Source: Ensifer sp. IC4062 (GTDB lineage Bacteria; Pseudomonadota; Alphaproteobacteria; Rhizobiales; Rhizobiaceae). Taken from it: a DNA stretch of 64,000 nucleotides. The notes beneath the pieces are model-generated. The model made no database searches, was not told where the DNA came from, and saw nothing but the letters and a program-made list of their open reading frames with translations. The position numbers and the translations under genes are program-made. Shown here one piece after another: positions 3,729-17,249 of this stretch. The stretch lies in assembly GCF_020193575.1 (NCBI RefSeq), contig NZ_JADYVD010000022.1, positions 1-64,000 of the forward strand. Reading direction: 5' to 3'. Each line of letters starts with the position of its first letter. Positions within the stretch are counted from its first letter, which is position 1.

Positions 3729-3840
3729 AAAACGCCGCCGACAATTGTTTGGTCTAATAGCGCAGATGGCTTGGACGGCAAATGTTTCCGCCGAAACTCG
3801 GCTTGCCAGACCTGCCGCCGAAAGCTAAATCTTTGCTGCT

Positions 3841-3934
3841 CTAACGGGGTGCCTTCGGTCCGATCGGAACCAAGGCTGAGAGGCTCGCGCCAACCCGCGG
3901 AACCTGATCCGGCTCATACCGGCGGAGGGATTAG
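3841..3934 (+). promoter_or_regulatory. TPP riboswitch (THI element)
   Basis: The conserved thi-box blocks appear in order: GGGGTGC (3846), GGCTGAGA (3874), ACCCG (3893), GAACCTGATCCGG (3900) and a closing GGAGGGA (3924). The element lies 64 bp upstream of thiB, so it is the leader of the thiBPQ mRNA. When TPP is bound it should lower expression of the transporter. Bases 3855-3866 are fully complementary to 3938-3949 just past the aptamer, a possible alternative pairing for the switch. Confidence 0.93.
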
Positions 3935-3997
3935 AAGCGATCGGACCGATGCGCCCTTTTCCCGCAACATCAAAAAAGAGGGAGAGAGGTGCCCGTC

Positions 3998-10698: not shown

Positions 10699-11268
10699 TT
10701 AAGCGGCCTCGTCCTGGGCGTCGTCCTCTTCGATGGCCTTGCCGCGCTTCGGCCCCTTGTTCAGGTTGGCTTCGACGAGACGGACCGCCTCCGTTTCAGA
10801 CATCTTGTTTACGGCAGCGATTTCGCGCGCCATGCGGTCAAGAGCGGCCTCATAAAGCTGGCGTTCGGAATAGGACTGTTCGGGTTGATTTTCCGCGCGA
10901 TAAAGATCGCGCACCACTTCCGCGATGGAGATGAGATCGCCGGAATTGATCTTGGCATCGTATTCCTGGGCACGGCGGGACCACATGGTCCGCTTGACGC
11001 GTGCCTTGCCCTGCACGACCTTCAGCGCACGATCGACGAAATCGGTTTCAGACAGCTTGCGCATGCCGATGCTGACGGCTTTCGCCACCGGCACCTTGAG
11101 ACGCATCTTGTCCTTCTCGAAATCGATGACAAAAAGCTCGAGCTTCATGCCAGCGACTTCCTGCTCCTCAATCGCAACGATCTGGCCAACACCATGAGCC
11201 GGATATACGATCGATTCACCGGTCTTGAAGCCTTGGCGCGTTGAAGATTTTTTCTGCTGGGTCGTCAT
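10699..11268 (-). CDS. carD: CarD-family transcriptional regulator
   Basis: 189 residues from ATG 11268 (MTTQQKKSSTRQGFKTGESIVYP). The N-terminal CarD/TRCF RNA-polymerase-interacting domain is clear (YPAHGVGQIVAIEEQEVAGMKLELFVIDFEKDKMRLKVPV). A basic helical domain follows with RTMWSRRAQEYDAKINSGDLISIAEVVRDLYR, and the tail is charged. CarD proteins bind the RNA polymerase beta subunit and stabilise open complexes at rRNA and other promoters. The frame extends 13 residues upstream, but those do not match the family. Last gene of the minus-strand group helicase, S4 protein, fdxA and carD; followed by a strong terminator. Confidence 0.9.
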   Translation of the reverse strand: MTTQQKKSSTRQGFKTGESIVYPAHGVGQIVAIEEQEVAGMKLELFVIDFEKDKMRLKVPVAKAVSIGMRKLSETDFVDRALKVVQGKARVKRTMWSRRAQEYDAKINSGDLISIAEVVRDLYRAENQPEQSYSERQLYEAALDRMAREIAAVNKMSETEAVRLVEANLNKGPKRGKAIEEDDAQDEAA

Positions 11269-11680
11269 TCGTTTCAAAAACTCCCTATTGCGCACCCGGC
11301 CTCTCAAAGGCCGGGGCCGGGTCGGTCAGGCCCGGGATAGACGGGAATACCGCCGGGTGGGGTCAATCCTGGTCCGTCCAACGGAACGCATACGGCCTCA
11401 TATATCGCGGTCACAGGCAACGGAACGTTGCGTATTTGGGAAGAGCCGCGCCGTGGAGATCGTTTGCTTTCGTGATGGTTTTCGGGCGCGCAAAAACACC
11501 CTCGGTGGATCAGTAACAGGAAGCTATCACAAAAAAGTGCGCAAATCAATAATTTGCTGCATGGCAGCGATCAAGCTACCACGCGCACAATTGTTAGGCT
11601 GAGGCCGGATTTCCCCAGATTTCGGCCCTCGCTTTGTATCCGTTCGTCAGGGTCGGCGAACCAAGCACGGGACGATTGCG
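11269..11680. other. Intergenic region between fdxA and carD
   Basis: 412 bp without a credible gene. It holds an inverted repeat GCAAAT/ATTTGC (11541-11557). Read on the minus strand, this is followed by a T run, so it may be a weak fdxA terminator or a protein site. A minus-strand TTGACC (11366-11361) could be part of the carD promoter, but no good -10 is spaced from it. Confidence 0.35.
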
Positions 11681-12019
11681 TCAGTCGCCCTGTCCCGGCT
11701 CGGCAGAGAAATACTTCTCGTATTTTCCATCGACGCCGTCCATCTCCTTGGCCTCCGGCAAAGGATCACGCTTCACCGTGATGTTCGGCCACTTCGTCGC
11801 AAAATCCGCGTTCAATTTCAACCACATGTCGAGGCCCGGCTCGGTATCCGGCTTGATCGCATTGGCCGGACATTCCGGCTCGCATACCCCGCAATCGATG
11901 CACTCATCAGGGTGGATGACGAGGAAATTCTCCCCTTCATAGAAGCAGTCCACAGGGCAGACTTCCACGCAATCCGTATACTTGCAGCGAATGCAATTGT
12001 CGGTCACGACATACGTCAT
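11681..12019 (-). CDS. fdxA: 7Fe ferredoxin (3Fe-4S/4Fe-4S)
   Basis: 112 residues from ATG 12019, with GGAG 6 nt upstream. [55 protein letters not shown]-type sequence gives the two cysteine clusters of FdxA ferredoxins; the irregular first cluster spacing indicates one 3Fe-4S plus one 4Fe-4S centre. The C-terminal 50 residues are the helical tail usual in FdxA. A low-potential electron carrier in the cytosol; its partner is unknown. The same-strand neighbours carD, S4 protein and helicase form a group I associate with many alphaproteobacteria. Confidence 0.92.
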
Positions 12020-12314
12020 GAGGTACTCCAGCCAATGCTCACATTTGATGGCAAACGGCAATCAATGGTGATGCTCGTCGTCCATGCACCCCAGGAATGT
12101 CTGGCGCGCATAGCTGCCGGACGAGACCCGAATGCCACTCAACGTGGCTTGTGAGGTAACGGCTTTGGATGCCCATTGCAAGAATAATCCATGCGCCGTT
12201 GGTCGGGAAGCGGGCAGAGTTTTCTAGCGCAGAAGGATTTTCGATTGCTTCGATCCAAAATCGCGGATTTGGCCGATTTTCACAGGCAAGCCAGCACGGA
12301 AACGCCGTCGCAGC

Positions 12315-12728
12315 TCAATCGTCGTGCTCGCCGAAGTCAGGTTTGAGCCGATCCGTGTCGCGCCGTTCCCGCTTCGTCGGGCGCCCGGCGCCCCGCTCGC
12401 GAGTCGCCTGCTCGAAAGCCGTCAACCTCTGGGAGGAGGCTGGCGGGGTCAGGTCCTCGTAGAGCAGGCGGGCCTCCTCGTAGGGACCCCGCCGCGTGCC
12501 AGGTAAGAGCACGCGAACGACGAGATCCCGTCGCTCCATCGACAATTCGAGCGTATCGCCTGCCTTTACCTGAGCGGAGGATTGCGTGACCCGCGTCCCG
12601 TTGACTGCGACATGACCCGCCTCGATCGCCTTCTGGGCAAGCGATCGCGATTTGATCAGCCGCGCGAAGAACAGCCACTTGTCGAGCCGCTGACGAGGTG
12701 CAGGCGCAGACGTTGGCTGTTTCTCCAT
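12315..12728 (-). CDS. S4-domain RNA-binding protein, Hsp15-like
   Basis: 137 residues. The S4 fold occupies residues 12-75: RQRLDKWLFFARLIKSRSLAQKAIEAGHVAVNGTRVTQSSAQVKAGDTLEL. The remaining part is highly charged (RERGAGRPTKRERRDTDRLKPDF), as in Hsp15, which rescues stalled 50S subunits carrying nascent chains after heat shock. The ribosome site AGGAAGG sits just before ATG 12728. It starts 8 bp after the helicase stop, so the two are almost certainly one transcript; both have RNA-related domains. Confidence 0.88.
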   Translation of the reverse strand: MEKQPTSAPAPRQRLDKWLFFARLIKSRSLAQKAIEAGHVAVNGTRVTQSSAQVKAGDTLELSMERRDLVVRVLLPGTRRGPYEEARLLYEDLTPPASSQRLTAFEQATRERGAGRPTKRERRDTDRLKPDFGEHDD

Positions 12729-12736
12729 TGCCCTTC

Positions 12737-15733
12737 CTACTTTTTCAGTTGCTCCTTGAGAGCGGCAAGTTTCGCAAAGGGCGAATCCGGATCCAGCGGC
12801 TTTTCCTTGCGTGGCGGGCGCCCATCAAACTTCTGACCGCCCGGCTTGCCGCCCCGATCATGGCGATCGGGTCGATCCTTGCGTTGGCCTCCACCAGGCC
12901 TGCCCTCCTGTGCCTTGCCGCGCATGGGCGCTCCGCCCTTGCGGCCGCCCTCCCTGCCTTCGCCCTGGCCATGCCGCTGGCCACCACGGCGATGCTCGCC
13001 CTGCTGGCGGCCGCCCTGGCGCTGGTTGTCCTGGCGCGTGCCAGGACGCCACAGGAGCACCGGCCTGGCTTCGGCAGGTTCTTCCGCCGCGCTTGCTTCA
13101 GTCGTGCTTTCTTCAGTCGGCGCATCGTTGGTTGCGTCGGCTGCGGGCGCTTCCGTCTGCGTCACTCCAGCCGGCTCGCTCTCGGCCTTCGCGTCCTCAT
13201 CGACGTTCTCGGCTGCGGCGGTTTCGAGCGGCGTCCCCGCCGGAGTCGCATCTGCGCTCTGGCTTGCGAGGAAGGCAGCCGCCTCTTCGGCGGTCACGCT
13301 GTCGGCGCGATAGCCAAGCCCCTTCAGGATTTCCTCCATGTCGTCAGGCGTTGCGCCGAGAATGGACAGCATCGCTGTCGTCGCCATGAAACGGCGGCCG
13401 TCGTATGCGCCGTCCGGACGCGGCTCTGCACCAGGCTTCCACTGCAGGAGCGGACGTATGAGATCCGCGAGCCGCTCAAGGATGTCGATCCGCACGGCCC
13501 GCTTGCCGAGGAAACGGAATCCGGCGAGCTTGTAGAATGTCCGCTCGAAAGACGGATCGGTGACGACAGAGGTACGGCCGGCGGCAAGCATCGGAATGAG
13601 TTCGCCATAGCCGGGCTTGTCGAGTCCGTCGTTCTTCAGCGCCCAGAGCAGCGTGATGAGCTCGGCAGGCGCCGGCTTCAGGAGAGCCGGCAGAAAGATG
13701 TGATAGGCGCCGAAGCGAACACCATATTTACGGATGGACGCGCGACCATCCTGGTCGAGCGACTTTACCTCCTCGGCGACATCACGGCGGAAGAGCACAC
13801 CAAGATTCTCGACGAGCTGGAAAGCCAGGCCCTTGGCGAGACCTTCGAGGTCCTCCGCACGGGAGATGTCGTCGAGAGGCTTCAATATCGTGCCGATATG
13901 GTGGTTCACGAACCGTTCGATCCGAGCGAGCACATGGTCGCGGGCGTTGGCCTGGAGCTGCTCGTCAGCGAGCAAGATGACGCGCGGGCGCATGACGTGA
14001 TCGCTCGCGGCAAGCCGCGCCACGGGATCGCCGAGCCAGCGCACGAGGCCATCCGACGAAAGCGCAAGATCACCATTGCCGGCCGCGTGAAGACGCGCAG
14101 CGCGCGCCTCGAATTCCAGCGCCAGCGCCTTCTGGGCAGCACCTTGCACCGCCTTCGCATCCGAGCCTTCGCCACCGGCCGCCAAAGTGAACCGGAAACC
14201 GGTTAACTGGCCTACGTGGTGCCCCTCTACGAAGACATCACCATTCACACTGATTTCAGCTTCCAGCATCGCATTCTCTCTCAGGCGCTTCATGAGCACA
14301 GATGTCCTGCGATCAACAAAGCGTTTCGTCAACCTTTCATGTAGCGCGTCGGACAATCGATCTTCGATTTCCCGCGTCTTTTCTTGCCAGTGTGTCGGAT
14401 CGGCAAGCCATCCGGGCCTATTTGACACATAGGTCCAGGTCCTGATCTGCGCAATTCGCGCCGAAAGTGTGTCAATCTCGCCATCTGTGTGATCCGCGCG
14501 GCGGACCTGCTCGGCCATGAAGTCTTCGTTGACCGTGCCCTCGCGAACGAGATCGGCGTAGATCGTCGAAATCAGGTCCGCGTGCTGAGCCGGCGTTATG
14601 CGCCGGTAGTCGGGAAGGGCGCAGGCCTCCCAAAGCGTCTCGACCCGCTCGGACGTGGTGGCAACGTCCATGATTTCGGGATAGCGCATGAGATGCTCCA
14701 GCGCCTGCTGATCGACAGCCGGAAGCGCTCGTGTCAGGCCGGCAACGGCCGGCGCTGCCTCGAGGCTTTTCTTGAGCGCCTTCAGCGAGGAATAATCGAC
14801 AGCCTTGGATCGCCATTGCAACACCCTGACCGCATCGAATTCGTGCGACTCCATGCGATGCACGAGTTCGCTGTCGAAAGGGTCGACGCGCCCGGTGACG
14901 CCGAATGTTCCGTCCCGCACATGCCGGCCCGCCCGCCCCGCGACCTGAGCGAGCTCCGCCGGGTTGAGATTGCGGTATTGGTAGCCGTCGAACTTGCGGT
15001 CCTGCGCGAAGGCGACATGATCGACGTCTAGGTTGAGGCCCATGCCGATGGCGTCGGTCGCTACAAGGTATTCGACGTCGCCCTCCTGGTAGAGCGCGAC
15101 CTGGGCGTTACGGGTGCGCGGCGACAGGGCCCCGAGCACGACGGCGGCACCGCCGCGCTGCCGCCGGATGAGCTCGGCGATGGCATAGACTTCGTCGGCC
15201 GAGAAGGCGACGATCGCGGAACGATGCGGGAGCCGGGTTATCTTCTTCGATCCCGCATAGAGAAGCTGCGACAGGCGCGGACGCTCGATGAAGGTGATCC
15301 CCGGCAGGAGCTGCTGGAGAATGGGGCGCATCGTCGCGGCACCGAGCAGCAGCGTTTCGTCGCGGCCGCGCAGATGCAGCAGCCTGTCGGTAAAGATGTG
15401 ACCACGCTCCAGGTCCGCGGCCAGTTGCACCTCATCGATCGCAACGAACGAGGCGGTCGTCTCGCGTGGCATGGCTTCGACGGTGCAAACCGAATAGCGC
15501 GCCCGATGCGGCGTGATCTTTTCCTCGCCCGTGATCAGCGCGACGTTGTGGTGGCCCACCTTTTCGACCAGGCGCGTATAGACCTCGCGCGCAAGCAGCC
15601 GCAGCGGCAGGCCGATGACGCCGCTGTCATGCGCAACCATGCGCTCGATCGCATAGTGGGTCTTGCCGGTGTTGGTTGGCCCGAGCACCGCGGTCACGCC
15701 GCGACCACTCAGAATCATGGATTGAAAGGACAC
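12737..15733 (-). CDS. SUV3-like DExH-box helicase
   Basis: 998 residues. Motif I is GPTNTGKTHYAIERM (about 18-32), the variant typical of the SUV3/mitochondrial RNA degradosome helicase group; motif II is DEVQ, followed by RGHIFTDRLLHLRG. The later motifs GALSPRTRNAQ, EYLVATDAIGMGLNLDVDHVAF and QVAGRAGRHVRDG complete the SF2 core. A long alanine/glutamate-rich linker and a basic glycine/arginine/lysine-rich tail follow (about 900-998), a likely RNA-binding extension. The start is probably GTG 15733 (AGGA 8 nt upstream); ATG 15718 is possible. The Rhodobacter mgpS product is a similar helicase. Role probably RNA processing; evidence is by family only. Confidence 0.87.
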   Translation of the reverse strand: MSFQSMILSGRGVTAVLGPTNTGKTHYAIERMVAHDSGVIGLPLRLLAREVYTRLVEKVGHHNVALITGEEKITPHRARYSVCTVEAMPRETTASFVAIDEVQLAADLERGHIFTDRLLHLRGRDETLLLGAATMRPILQQLLPGITFIERPRLSQLLYAGSKKITRLPHRSAIVAFSADEVYAIAELIRRQRGGAAVVLGALSPRTRNAQVALYQEGDVEYLVATDAIGMGLNLDVDHVAFAQDRKFDGYQYRNLNPAELAQVAGRAGRHVRDGTFGVTGRVDPFDSELVHRMESHEFDAVRVLQWRSKAVDYSSLKALKKSLEAAPAVAGLTRALPAVDQQALEHLMRYPEIMDVATTSERVETLWEACALPDYRRITPAQHADLISTIYADLVREGTVNEDFMAEQVRRADHTDGEIDTLSARIAQIRTWTYVSNRPGWLADPTHWQEKTREIEDRLSDALHERLTKRFVDRRTSVLMKRLRENAMLEAEISVNGDVFVEGHHVGQLTGFRFTLAAGGEGSDAKAVQGAAQKALALEFEARAARLHAAGNGDLALSSDGLVRWLGDPVARLAASDHVMRPRVILLADEQLQANARDHVLARIERFVNHHIGTILKPLDDISRAEDLEGLAKGLAFQLVENLGVLFRRDVAEEVKSLDQDGRASIRKYGVRFGAYHIFLPALLKPAPAELITLLWALKNDGLDKPGYGELIPMLAAGRTSVVTDPSFERTFYKLAGFRFLGKRAVRIDILERLADLIRPLLQWKPGAEPRPDGAYDGRRFMATTAMLSILGATPDDMEEILKGLGYRADSVTAEEAAAFLASQSADATPAGTPLETAAAENVDEDAKAESEPAGVTQTEAPAADATNDAPTEESTTEASAAEEPAEARPVLLWRPGTRQDNQRQGGRQQGEHRRGGQRHGQGEGREGGRKGGAPMRGKAQEGRPGGGQRKDRPDRHDRGGKPGGQKFDGRPPRKEKPLDPDSPFAKLAALKEQLKK

Positions 15734-15900
15734 TTCTTCGATCCTGGCATTCTCAACGAGCCGGCGCGGTTTTGCGGGCCGGCGGGGAACACATGCCCAC
15801 GCGCCGGCCCAAACGCAAGGGGCGCGGACAATTAAAACCGCTTGCGGCCTCCTCCCCGAACCACATTTCGGGCCTCCAAATTAACGTTCGGAACAGCGGT

Positions 15901-16206
15901 GGAACGAATCAGCGACGAATCGCTGACTCGCGTCGATTCACTGTATGTTCACGGCTATATCTAGACTTCCGCGCGAAGAGTCGCACCACATGCTGAATCG
16001 GCCGGAACATCGCGCAAACAACGGCCGTCAGCGCCGTTAACTTTTCCTTCCAGAACGTTAATTGCCATCAAGGATTCGGAATCCAAGACTCTGGAAAGTT
16101 TAGAAAATTTTAACTCGGATTCGCTTTCGGACTCCGCGAATCGGGGAATAAGAATCGTCGCATTAACCTTTCGATCAAAGCCGGAACGAATCGGCGACGA
16201 ATCGCT
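15901..16206. repeat. 24-bp direct repeats bounding the GANTC cluster
   Basis: Bases 15901-15924 and 16183-16206 are identical at 23 of 24 positions, differing only at the eleventh base (A against G). Each copy holds two GANTC sites 11 bp apart. The copies are 282 bp apart in the same orientation. Confidence 0.8.
15906..16203. promoter_or_regulatory. Cluster of 15 GANTC (CcrM) methylation sites
   Basis: GANTC occurs at 15906, 15917, 15925, 15935, 15978, 15995, 16073, 16079, 16087, 16118, 16130, 16138, 16152, 16188 and 16199. About one would be expected by chance in 298 bp. Many neighbouring sites are 8-12 bp apart. The cluster lies 173-470 bp upstream of the helicase start and downstream of phbB, in the longest gene-free stretch of the window. 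GANTC is the target of the cell-cycle methylase CcrM in alphaproteobacteria. The density is seen directly; its function is unknown. Confidence 0.8.
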
Positions 16207-16233
16207 CACACGGATGCTTTCTCGTTTTGTTCA

Positions 16234-16249
16234 CCACAACATATTGTGG
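16234..16249. repeat. Short inverted repeat downstream of phbB
   Basis: CCACAA-cata-TTGTGG, perfect 6-bp arms, lies between the GANTC cluster and the end of phbB. It may be a protein site; there is no T tract that would make it a terminator. Confidence 0.35.
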
Positions 16250-16416: not shown

Positions 16417-17142
16417 TCAGACGAAGAACTGGCCACCATTGGCCGAAATTGTCGAGCCGGTGATGAAGCCGGCGTCGTCGGATGCGAGGAACACGACACA
16501 ACGCGCAACTTCTTCCGGTTCACCGAGGCGCCCCACCGGAATCTGCGGAATGATCCGTTCGTTGAGCACCTTTTCCGGCACGGCCCTTACCATCTCCGTG
16601 CCGATATAACCCGGGCAGATCGCGTTCACGGTGATGCCCTTTGCCGCCCCTTCCTGCGCGAGTGCCTTTGTGAAGCCGAGATCGCCGGCCTTCGCCGCGG
16701 AATAATTCGCCTGGCCCATCTGCCCTTTCTGACCGTTGATGGAGGAGATGTTGATCACGCGTCCGAAGCCGCGGTCGCGCATGCCCGACCAGAGCGGATG
16801 CGTCATGTTGAAGAGGCCGGTCAGATTGGTGCTGATCACTTCACCCCACTGTTCCGGCGTCATCTTGTGAAACATCGCGTCACGCGTGATGCCGGCATTG
16901 TTGACGAGAACGTCCACCGGCCCGAGATCGGCCTCCACCTTGGCGATGCCCTCGGCGCAGGCCTGATAGTTGGAGACATCCCACTTGTAGACGGGGATGC
17001 CGGTTTCCTGCTTGAAGGCCTGGGCCTTCTCGTCATTGCCGGCATAGTTTGCGGCCACCTTGTAGCCCGCTGCTTTCAGCGCCACCGAAATGGCTGCTCC
17101 GATGCCGCGCGATCCACCTGTAACCAACGCTACCCTACTCAT
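16417..17142 (-). CDS. phbB: Acetoacetyl-CoA reductase
   Basis: 241 residues from ATG 17142, with GGGAGG 6 nt upstream; this length is right for PhbB. Short-chain dehydrogenase motifs: cofactor loop TGGSRGIGAAIS, NNAG (NNAGITRDAMFHKM), catalytic serine in INISSINGQKGQMGQ and YSAAKAG with Tyr/Lys, then GYIGTEMV. The PhbB-type segment GQMGQANYSAAKAGDLGFTKALAQEGA separates it from FabG. It reduces acetoacetyl-CoA to (R)-3-hydroxybutyryl-CoA with NADPH, the second step of polyhydroxybutyrate synthesis. It follows phbA on the same strand after 178 bp. Confidence 0.95.
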   Translation of the reverse strand: MSRVALVTGGSRGIGAAISVALKAAGYKVAANYAGNDEKAQAFKQETGIPVYKWDVSNYQACAEGIAKVEADLGPVDVLVNNAGITRDAMFHKMTPEQWGEVISTNLTGLFNMTHPLWSGMRDRGFGRVINISSINGQKGQMGQANYSAAKAGDLGFTKALAQEGAAKGITVNAICPGYIGTEMVRAVPEKVLNERIIPQIPVGRLGEPEEVARCVVFLASDDAGFITGSTISANGGQFFV

Positions 17143-17249
17143 GCTCGCCTCCCACAAAGTTGATTTGAATTTTGCATAGGTGATCCGCATGTGCCCCGGC
17201 ATAAACGGGCCACATGTGCTTGACCAATTTCGTTGATGTCACATAGGGA

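Follow-up and report, generated by a model that had tools for sequence, protein, structure and literature searches.

The window analysed here comprises the first 64,000 nucleotides of contig NZ_JADYVD010000022.1 of Ensifer sp. IC4062 and contains a gap of 683 bp between the end of the phbB open reading frame (ORF) at 16417 and the start, at 15733, of an ORF for a Suv3-like helicase, both genes being on the minus strand. Within this gap lie a dense cluster of GANTC sites and two copies, 282 bp apart and in the helicase sense, of a nearly ungapped module of ~90-120 bp, in which boxes of the NrdR type adjoin phased GANTC sites. An earlier reading of the window (hereafter, the sequence-only reading) had reported no matching repeat in this stretch, which needs to be amended; indeed, the two module copies are themselves a 73-nt imperfect direct repeat (15880-15952 and 16162-16234) with 73% identity. 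Module coordinates are counted from the G of the first GATTCG, namely window position 15921, and the features of the locus are as follows.

12737 to 15733, minus strand: gene for the Suv3-like helicase, 998 amino acids (PF22527 DEXQc_Suv3, PF00271)
16417 to 17202, minus strand: phbB, the upstream gene, acetoacetyl-CoA reductase (TIGR01829)
15880 to 15999, minus strand: proximal module, almost free of gaps between GATTC at -78 and TTAA at ~+36, as given by the consensus of 60 non-redundant proximal modules and by the direct repeat
15986 to 15995, minus strand: core of NrdR-type box A, CAGCATGTGG, matching 5 of 6 key positions
15955 to 15964, minus strand: core of NrdR-type box B, CTAGATATAG, matching 6 of 6 key positions, 31 bp from box A
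15925 to 15939, minus strand: two further sites of the proximal module, GAATC (-18) and GAGTC (-8)
15902 to 15921, minus strand: proximal core GATTCGTCGCTGATTCGTTC with two GATTCG spaced by 11 bp
16162 to 16249, minus strand: distal module with a single NrdR-type box CCACAATATGTTGTGG (core at 16237-16246), GTGAACAAA, the core and TTAA
16184 to 16203, minus strand: distal core GATTCGTCGCCGATTCGTTC
16073 to 16156, no strand: seven GANTC sites between the modules

The GANTC cluster is real, conserved and unequalled in the DNA that was sampled. The sequence-only reading had claimed 15 GANTC sites at 15906-16203 where about one is expected, and we count exactly 15 against 0.6 expected at the rate of the window (Poisson P(≥15) ~2e-16). 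Its view of the cluster as unmatched in the window is likewise borne out, and such clusters are rare in what was sampled elsewhere; the rest of the window peaks at 4 sites per 298 bp, the other contigs of the same genome (400 kb sampled, 1.71 sites per kb) at 5, and the loci of relatives (502 kb, excluding 2.5 kb upstream of the helicase gene) at 4. A chance origin of the cluster is excluded. The whole window has 129 GANTC sites (2.0 per kb) as compared with a mean of 369 in its dinucleotide shuffles, and GANTC is therefore avoided elsewhere in the window. As for the reported spacing of 8-12 bp, steps of 11 bp do recur, but those of 6, 8 and 10 bp and larger ones are also present.

Relatives were fetched by using the N-terminus of the helicase, and we took the best 80 of at least 591 candidates encoding a relative. 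In 72 of these 80 loci, at least 5 GANTC sites per 300 bp were found within 4 kb upstream of the helicase gene; the conservation in relatives on which the sequence-only reading had made its claim depend is thus observed. The eight loci below this density are L015, L019, L020, L033, L035, L074, L081 and L085. Over positions -700 to -100 of the helicase gene in 81 loci, furthermore, GANTC is 2.86-fold above the local dinucleotide expectation, while all 12 of its one-mismatch neighbours stay at 0.60-1.01. GTNAA and TTNAC are also enriched in the same region (2.1-2.2-fold) via GTTAAC-like strings, which presumably resemble CtrA half-sites.

Across 147 module instances, a block of 92 bp is free of gaps and shows in fixed order C.A.AT.T.G, GTGAACAAA, GAA, GTC, GATTCGTCgcc GATTCGTTC and G..C. 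Since the search patterns tolerate few mismatches in the GAACA and GATTCG blocks, selection accounts in part for how conserved these blocks are and how they are spaced; the 31 bp from GTGAACA to GATTCG, for example, is a distance imposed by the pattern, and the second locus of L247, with 30 bp, was missed by it. The NrdR-type boxes lie outside the search patterns. Before the 147 instances were counted, we omitted hits in L121, L130, L128, L001, L002-L008 and L089-L097 (chance or coding matches, duplicates) and near-identical copies, and for the latter reason the two copies of the window, which had been scanned, were also removed; alignment A1 combines 75 of the 147 with these two (77 instances). 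Two types of the module are distinguished, namely the longer proximal copies (60 non-redundant of 68), which extend from GATTC at -78 through TTAA at ~+36, and the distal copies (55 non-redundant of 62). Inverted arms, GAAC/GAA and TTC/GTTC, stand in 11-bp steps on either side of the core. In the Hyphomicrobiales set, no column outside the module was conserved up to 130 bp from the core. In five loci (L026, L032, L037, L039 and L040), the farthest copy is 0.8-1.7 kb from the next, with other sequence intervening.

The element is tied to the gene of the Suv3-like helicase. When the fixed pattern GATTCGTNNNNGATTCGTTC was searched with one mismatch allowed, 126 of 397 genomes of the order were hit, as compared with 2 of 397 for the reversed control, and the helicase was present in 26 of the 30 returned loci. 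The fixed core pattern occurs solely at the helicase locus in the own genome, Rhizobium johnstonii 3841 and Mesorhizobium amorphae, and is absent from 6 of the 10 genomes searched, which were picked mostly for GANTC-poor loci. No second copy of the whole gap was found in the own genome. Two Shinella and one Rhizobium (L015, L019 and L020) have no match to the fixed core pattern, and Shinella granuli (L017) has a copy; the three are possibly natural deletions that would be useful for comparison.

A sequence-only profile, R1, matched all 24 genomes of the own genus with one locus each at E<0.001, 154 of 199 genomes (71 of 93 genera) of the order and 21 of 192 genomes in a sample of the class, i.e., the own genome, two of the order and 18 outside it. 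R1 is limited in its sensitivity outside the order, as most of its source sequences belong to the order and as stricter filters were applied when searching over 40 genomes. Except for the own genome, 19 of the 20 element-bearing genomes in the class sample have a helicase match. In 18 of these 19, the element precedes the matched stretch by 98-921 bp and shares its strand; in the other one, G573, the distance is 4.7 kb. The helicase was matched in 132 genomes of the class sample, 70 of which were covered by a strand-aware reading. One genome, G448 (L258), has the element but no helicase match, and its module immediately precedes a LolA-like gene.

NrdR is chiefly known as a repressor of ribonucleotide reductase (RNR) genes, and the alternating C, A, A, T, T and G positions in the left palindrome of the module follow what we take to be the NrdR box pattern. 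Excerpts of three papers describe NrdR boxes ~31-32 bp apart (PMC2892513), conserved GC pairs 31 bp apart (PMC9110341) and 16-bp boxes separated by spacers of 15-16 bp (PMC12051234); a partner box was therefore predicted 31-32 bp away. When all offsets were scored, only -43 and, in proximal modules, -74 stood out, which are 31 bp apart. Box B (-43) fits all six key positions in 55 of the 68 proximal modules and in 51 of the 62 distal ones; box A (-74) fits five of six in 57 of 68 proximal modules. The distal copies have no regular partner box, with 6 of 62 reaching five of six at the place of box A. Among 245 non-redundant modules, of which 197 have a good box B, the 31-bp spacing accounts for 87 upstream boxes and no other spacing for more than 9, as compared with 0.74 in shuffles; this count allows one-base shifts, which are missed by the scoring at fixed offsets. 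Of 99 modules that come almost entirely from other families or orders (one own-family genome, L225, is included in such sets), 71 have box B, sometimes shifted by one base relative to the core, and 31 of these have the partner at 31 bp. Of eight genomes with an nrdJ above the family cut-off, six, among them the own genome, carry a 31-bp pair upstream of it; the pair of a seventh is spaced by 32 bp, and the eighth lacks one. A gene for NrdR was found in 28 of the 29 genomes searched, own genome included, both with and without the element, and its presence does not therefore discriminate. In 51 of the 57 paired modules from the own-family and Mesorhizobium set, moreover, the first C of box A is also the last base of a GANTC, as it is in the window (GATTC at 15995-15999), and methylation would thus fall inside the operator.

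In all 147 instances, C or T stands before the first GATTCG and G after its GATTC, a figure that results partly from selection with a block pattern allowing one mismatch. An extended motif, YGAKTCG/YGAKTCK and also TGATTCG, is discussed for GcrA in Caulobacter in the excerpted text of PMC7987155. As regards the middle base of the aligned GANTC sites, it changed 8 times in Ensifer (11 sites; mean per arm position, 4), 7 times in Mesorhizobium (8 sites; mean, 5.75) and once in Rhizobium/Agrobacterium/Neorhizobium (5 sites; mean, 3.25); background columns changed 4.5, 5.5 and 7.1 times each, respectively. All 8 changes in Ensifer fall in two sites, and some less well kept sites there carry three or four middle bases, favouring GANTC as such at those places. 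Selection for GANTC only is nonetheless mostly contradicted, given that the middle base is kept at most aligned sites; something would therefore read the sites as whole sequences. Outside the modules, 25 sequences of the Ensifer group have 16.3 GANTC per kb with all four middle bases, the Rhizobium group has 9.4, and Mesorhizobium has no excess there (4.5, within the range of the one-mismatch neighbours). Specific proteins thus seem to read the module, around which GANTC sites have also accumulated in Ensifer.

Methylation may be relevant to the element. In S. meliloti, SMa1635 and SMa2245 are named on hypomethylated sites occluded by MucR in an excerpt of PMC5172544, and depletion of CcrM in A. 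tumefaciens is described as changing 273 genes in an excerpt of PMC11514494, the main text of which does not contain the word helicase.

Copies also occur away from the helicase gene. Two genomes of family f35 (L247 and L248), which we take to be Bradyrhizobium-like, have an extra copy with the 31-bp pair in a gap between convergent ORFs, which were read by eye and are common to both genomes. Four f20 genomes (L253-L256) have GATTCG cores with no NrdR boxes in a gap next to a gene resembling transketolase; in L253, this gene and one for RNase T2 are convergent. In these four genomes, the right half of the module, with its GATTCG pairs, stands alone, and the two halves can therefore part. The copies with 31-bp pairs in G036 adjoin a DUF3108 gene, a family that is also found directly upstream of the element and the helicase gene in L249 and L259. 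In light of these second loci, a role as helicase promoter only is disfavoured.

With hemE, presumably a marker of oriC, as the reference point, distances to the element were obtained for 24 of 25 genomes, G078 having the element and hemE on different contigs. Of 12 Ensifer-group genomes, 11 have a distance of 101-117 kb and one of 150 kb; the values for R. johnstonii, M. amorphae and G145, the last being of the same family, are 144, 434 and 495 kb, respectively, and those for ten genomes from other families range from 12 to 637 kb. The element is thus not at hemE but origin-proximal with no fixed distance. This position lends weak support to the replication landmark proposed in the sequence-only reading, given that the distance is not fixed.

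Further features around the helicase gene, and one elsewhere in the window, are given below.

15790 to 15818, minus strand: candidate promoter-like TTGCGT-N17-CATGTG between the proximal module and the helicase gene, read by eye
12315 to 12728, minus strand: gene for an S4-domain protein, downstream of the helicase gene
11681 to 12061, minus strand: gene for ferredoxin FdxA, downstream of the helicase gene
10699 to 11307, minus strand: ORF presumably CarD-like, downstream of the helicase, S4 and fdxA genes
3835 to 3947: thiamine pyrophosphate (TPP) riboswitch, the sole Rfam match above the gathering score in the window

Strings similar to the promoter-like one were recognized by eye in L024, L050 and L070. 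Were the presumably CarD-like ORF co-transcribed, the element would also touch a global regulator of RNA polymerase.

We propose, with a probability of roughly 0.55, that the two tandem modules act as composite operators which would link the level of deoxyribonucleoside triphosphates (dNTPs) and GANTC methylation to the operon of the Suv3-like helicase. NrdR with dATP and ATP would occupy the left half, where two NrdR-type boxes are spaced by 31 bp (one box in the distal copy), when DNA precursors are plentiful. The right half is composed of two or three GATTCG/GACTCG phased by 11 bp and flanked by the GAAC-N7-GAA and TTC-N7-GTTC arms and TTAA; CcrM would methylate its GANTC sites at a late stage of the cell cycle, and fork passage would leave them hemimethylated, with YGATTCG being the form associated with GcrA. 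Expression of the helicase, S4 and fdxA genes, which probably constitute a single operon, would then follow dNTP level and replication state. In terms of the NrdR-type boxes, the element is claimed to work like, but not to be, an RNR operator.

Several observations weigh against the composite operators. Box A fits just five of the six key positions, and the strict pair, found in 464 kb of the own genome once and at this locus, occurs about as often as expected by chance (~1 in a rough estimate); the case for NrdR therefore rests on conservation and spacing. Among 11 modules outside the order, none shows both boxes at 31 bp when scored at fixed offsets, although single good boxes occur, and the overlap of box A with GANTC is seen in just 4 of 28 paired modules in the other-families set. 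No RNR gene adjoins the element, the neighbours of which are phbB and the helicase-S4-fdxA genes. The distance from core to helicase start varies from 154 to 1794 bp in 68 loci, the copies in convergent gaps (L247, L248 and L253-L256) cannot serve the flanking genes as ordinary promoters, and those of f20 have no NrdR boxes. Also, the excerpted text of PMC7987155 reports no preference for the extended motif in Brevundimonas.

A wider proposal, which we regard as rather unlikely, is that the element is an ancient alphaproteobacterial sensor of replication state; namely, NrdR boxes with a CcrM-site flank, joined in fixed phase to a GANTC array of the GcrA type, would integrate precursor supply and fork passage at a single locus, and the stray copies in convergent gaps would dock or titrate rather than promote. 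An equally doubtful alternative is a promoter region timed by GcrA and CcrM methylation only, where the left palindromes would belong to another factor and the dense GANTC sites would serve graded sensing of hemimethylation. Such a methylation-timed switch, already suggested in the sequence-only reading, gains from the YGATTCG core, the conserved density with its 2.86-fold enrichment over unenriched one-mismatch neighbours, the GANTC sites outside the modules in Ensifer and, less so, the Rhizobium group, and the origin-proximal position; it leaves the 31-bp box pair unexplained, however, and is at odds with the middle base being as conserved as the arms at most aligned sites, with the GANTC content outside the modules in Mesorhizobium and with the convergent-gap copies. 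Somewhat less probable again is an autonomous chromosomal site for docking or titration of replication-state proteins that is beside the helicase gene by happenstance. The convergent-gap copies, the tandem arrangement, dyad arms and near-ungapped geometry, the single locus per genome in the genus and the distance of at most 637 kb from hemE in the 24 genomes with both on one contig would all suit such a site, whereas the tight link to the helicase gene, same strand and 98-921 bp downstream in 18 of 19 class-sample genomes, would not.

Two further explanations are very improbable. Intergenic and sometimes convergent location in tandem copies would be compatible with a small RNA gene or a structured leader RNA, but the Rfam scan gave nothing above the gathering score in the gap, the conservation ends with the module as described above, and the dyad arms are devoid of covariation, the observed pairing being equal to that expected from independence (this dyad being the only folding considered). 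Similarly, an operator of LexA (SOS) would be suggested by GTTC-N7-GTTC in 62 of 68 proximal modules, but this string is present in just 3 of 62 distal ones, and GAAC-N7-GAAC as the left arm in 4 of 68 proximal and none of 62 distal modules; what we take to be the LexA consensus matched a box upstream of recA in just 2 of 8 genomes and is hence a weak yardstick. As to other regulators, GCC-N8-GCC of ChvI and AGTCAC/GTGACT of CenR, taken from excerpts giving the published consensus and compared by eye, do not fit the module consensus.

In our literature search, no description of such an element was found. The locus in S. meliloti is presumably linked to the gene number SMc03877. Neither SMc03877 nor SMc03878 has a match in the main text of a survey of S. 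meliloti small RNAs (PMC2873474). The element, which is found throughout the order and also beyond it, joins NrdR-type boxes to a phased array of CcrM sites before a helicase gene. If the composite operators function as proposed, the NrdR regulon would be extended, and dNTP sensing would be directly linked to the methylation clock of alphaproteobacteria; given the precise geometry, this can easily be tested by single-site changes.

Among known systems, the GATC cluster of SeqA at E. coli oriC also consists of dense, helically phased methylation sites, but the element is away from the origin marker hemE (101-150 kb in 12 Ensifer-group genomes). The single NrdR box of topA in Pseudomonas aeruginosa, described in an excerpt of PMC4409342, is alike in that a nucleic-acid gene other than RNR is under control of the NrdR type and in that one box is used as in the distal module; the gene and the bacterial class are different, and no GANTC array is mentioned in that excerpt. 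Promoters of GcrA and CcrM in Caulobacter and Brevundimonas (PMC7987155, in excerpt) share the extended motif YGAKTCG/TGATTCG, whereas the element has many sites in a near-fixed frame of ~90-120 bp, which is repeated, and its core is ~85-100 bp from the nearest promoter-like string. The NrdR operators of RNR genes are alike in possessing two CnAnATnTnG palindromes 31 bp apart, as upstream of nrdJ; unlike them, the element is placed before a helicase gene and in convergent gaps, is fused to a phased GANTC array and has a distal copy with one box.
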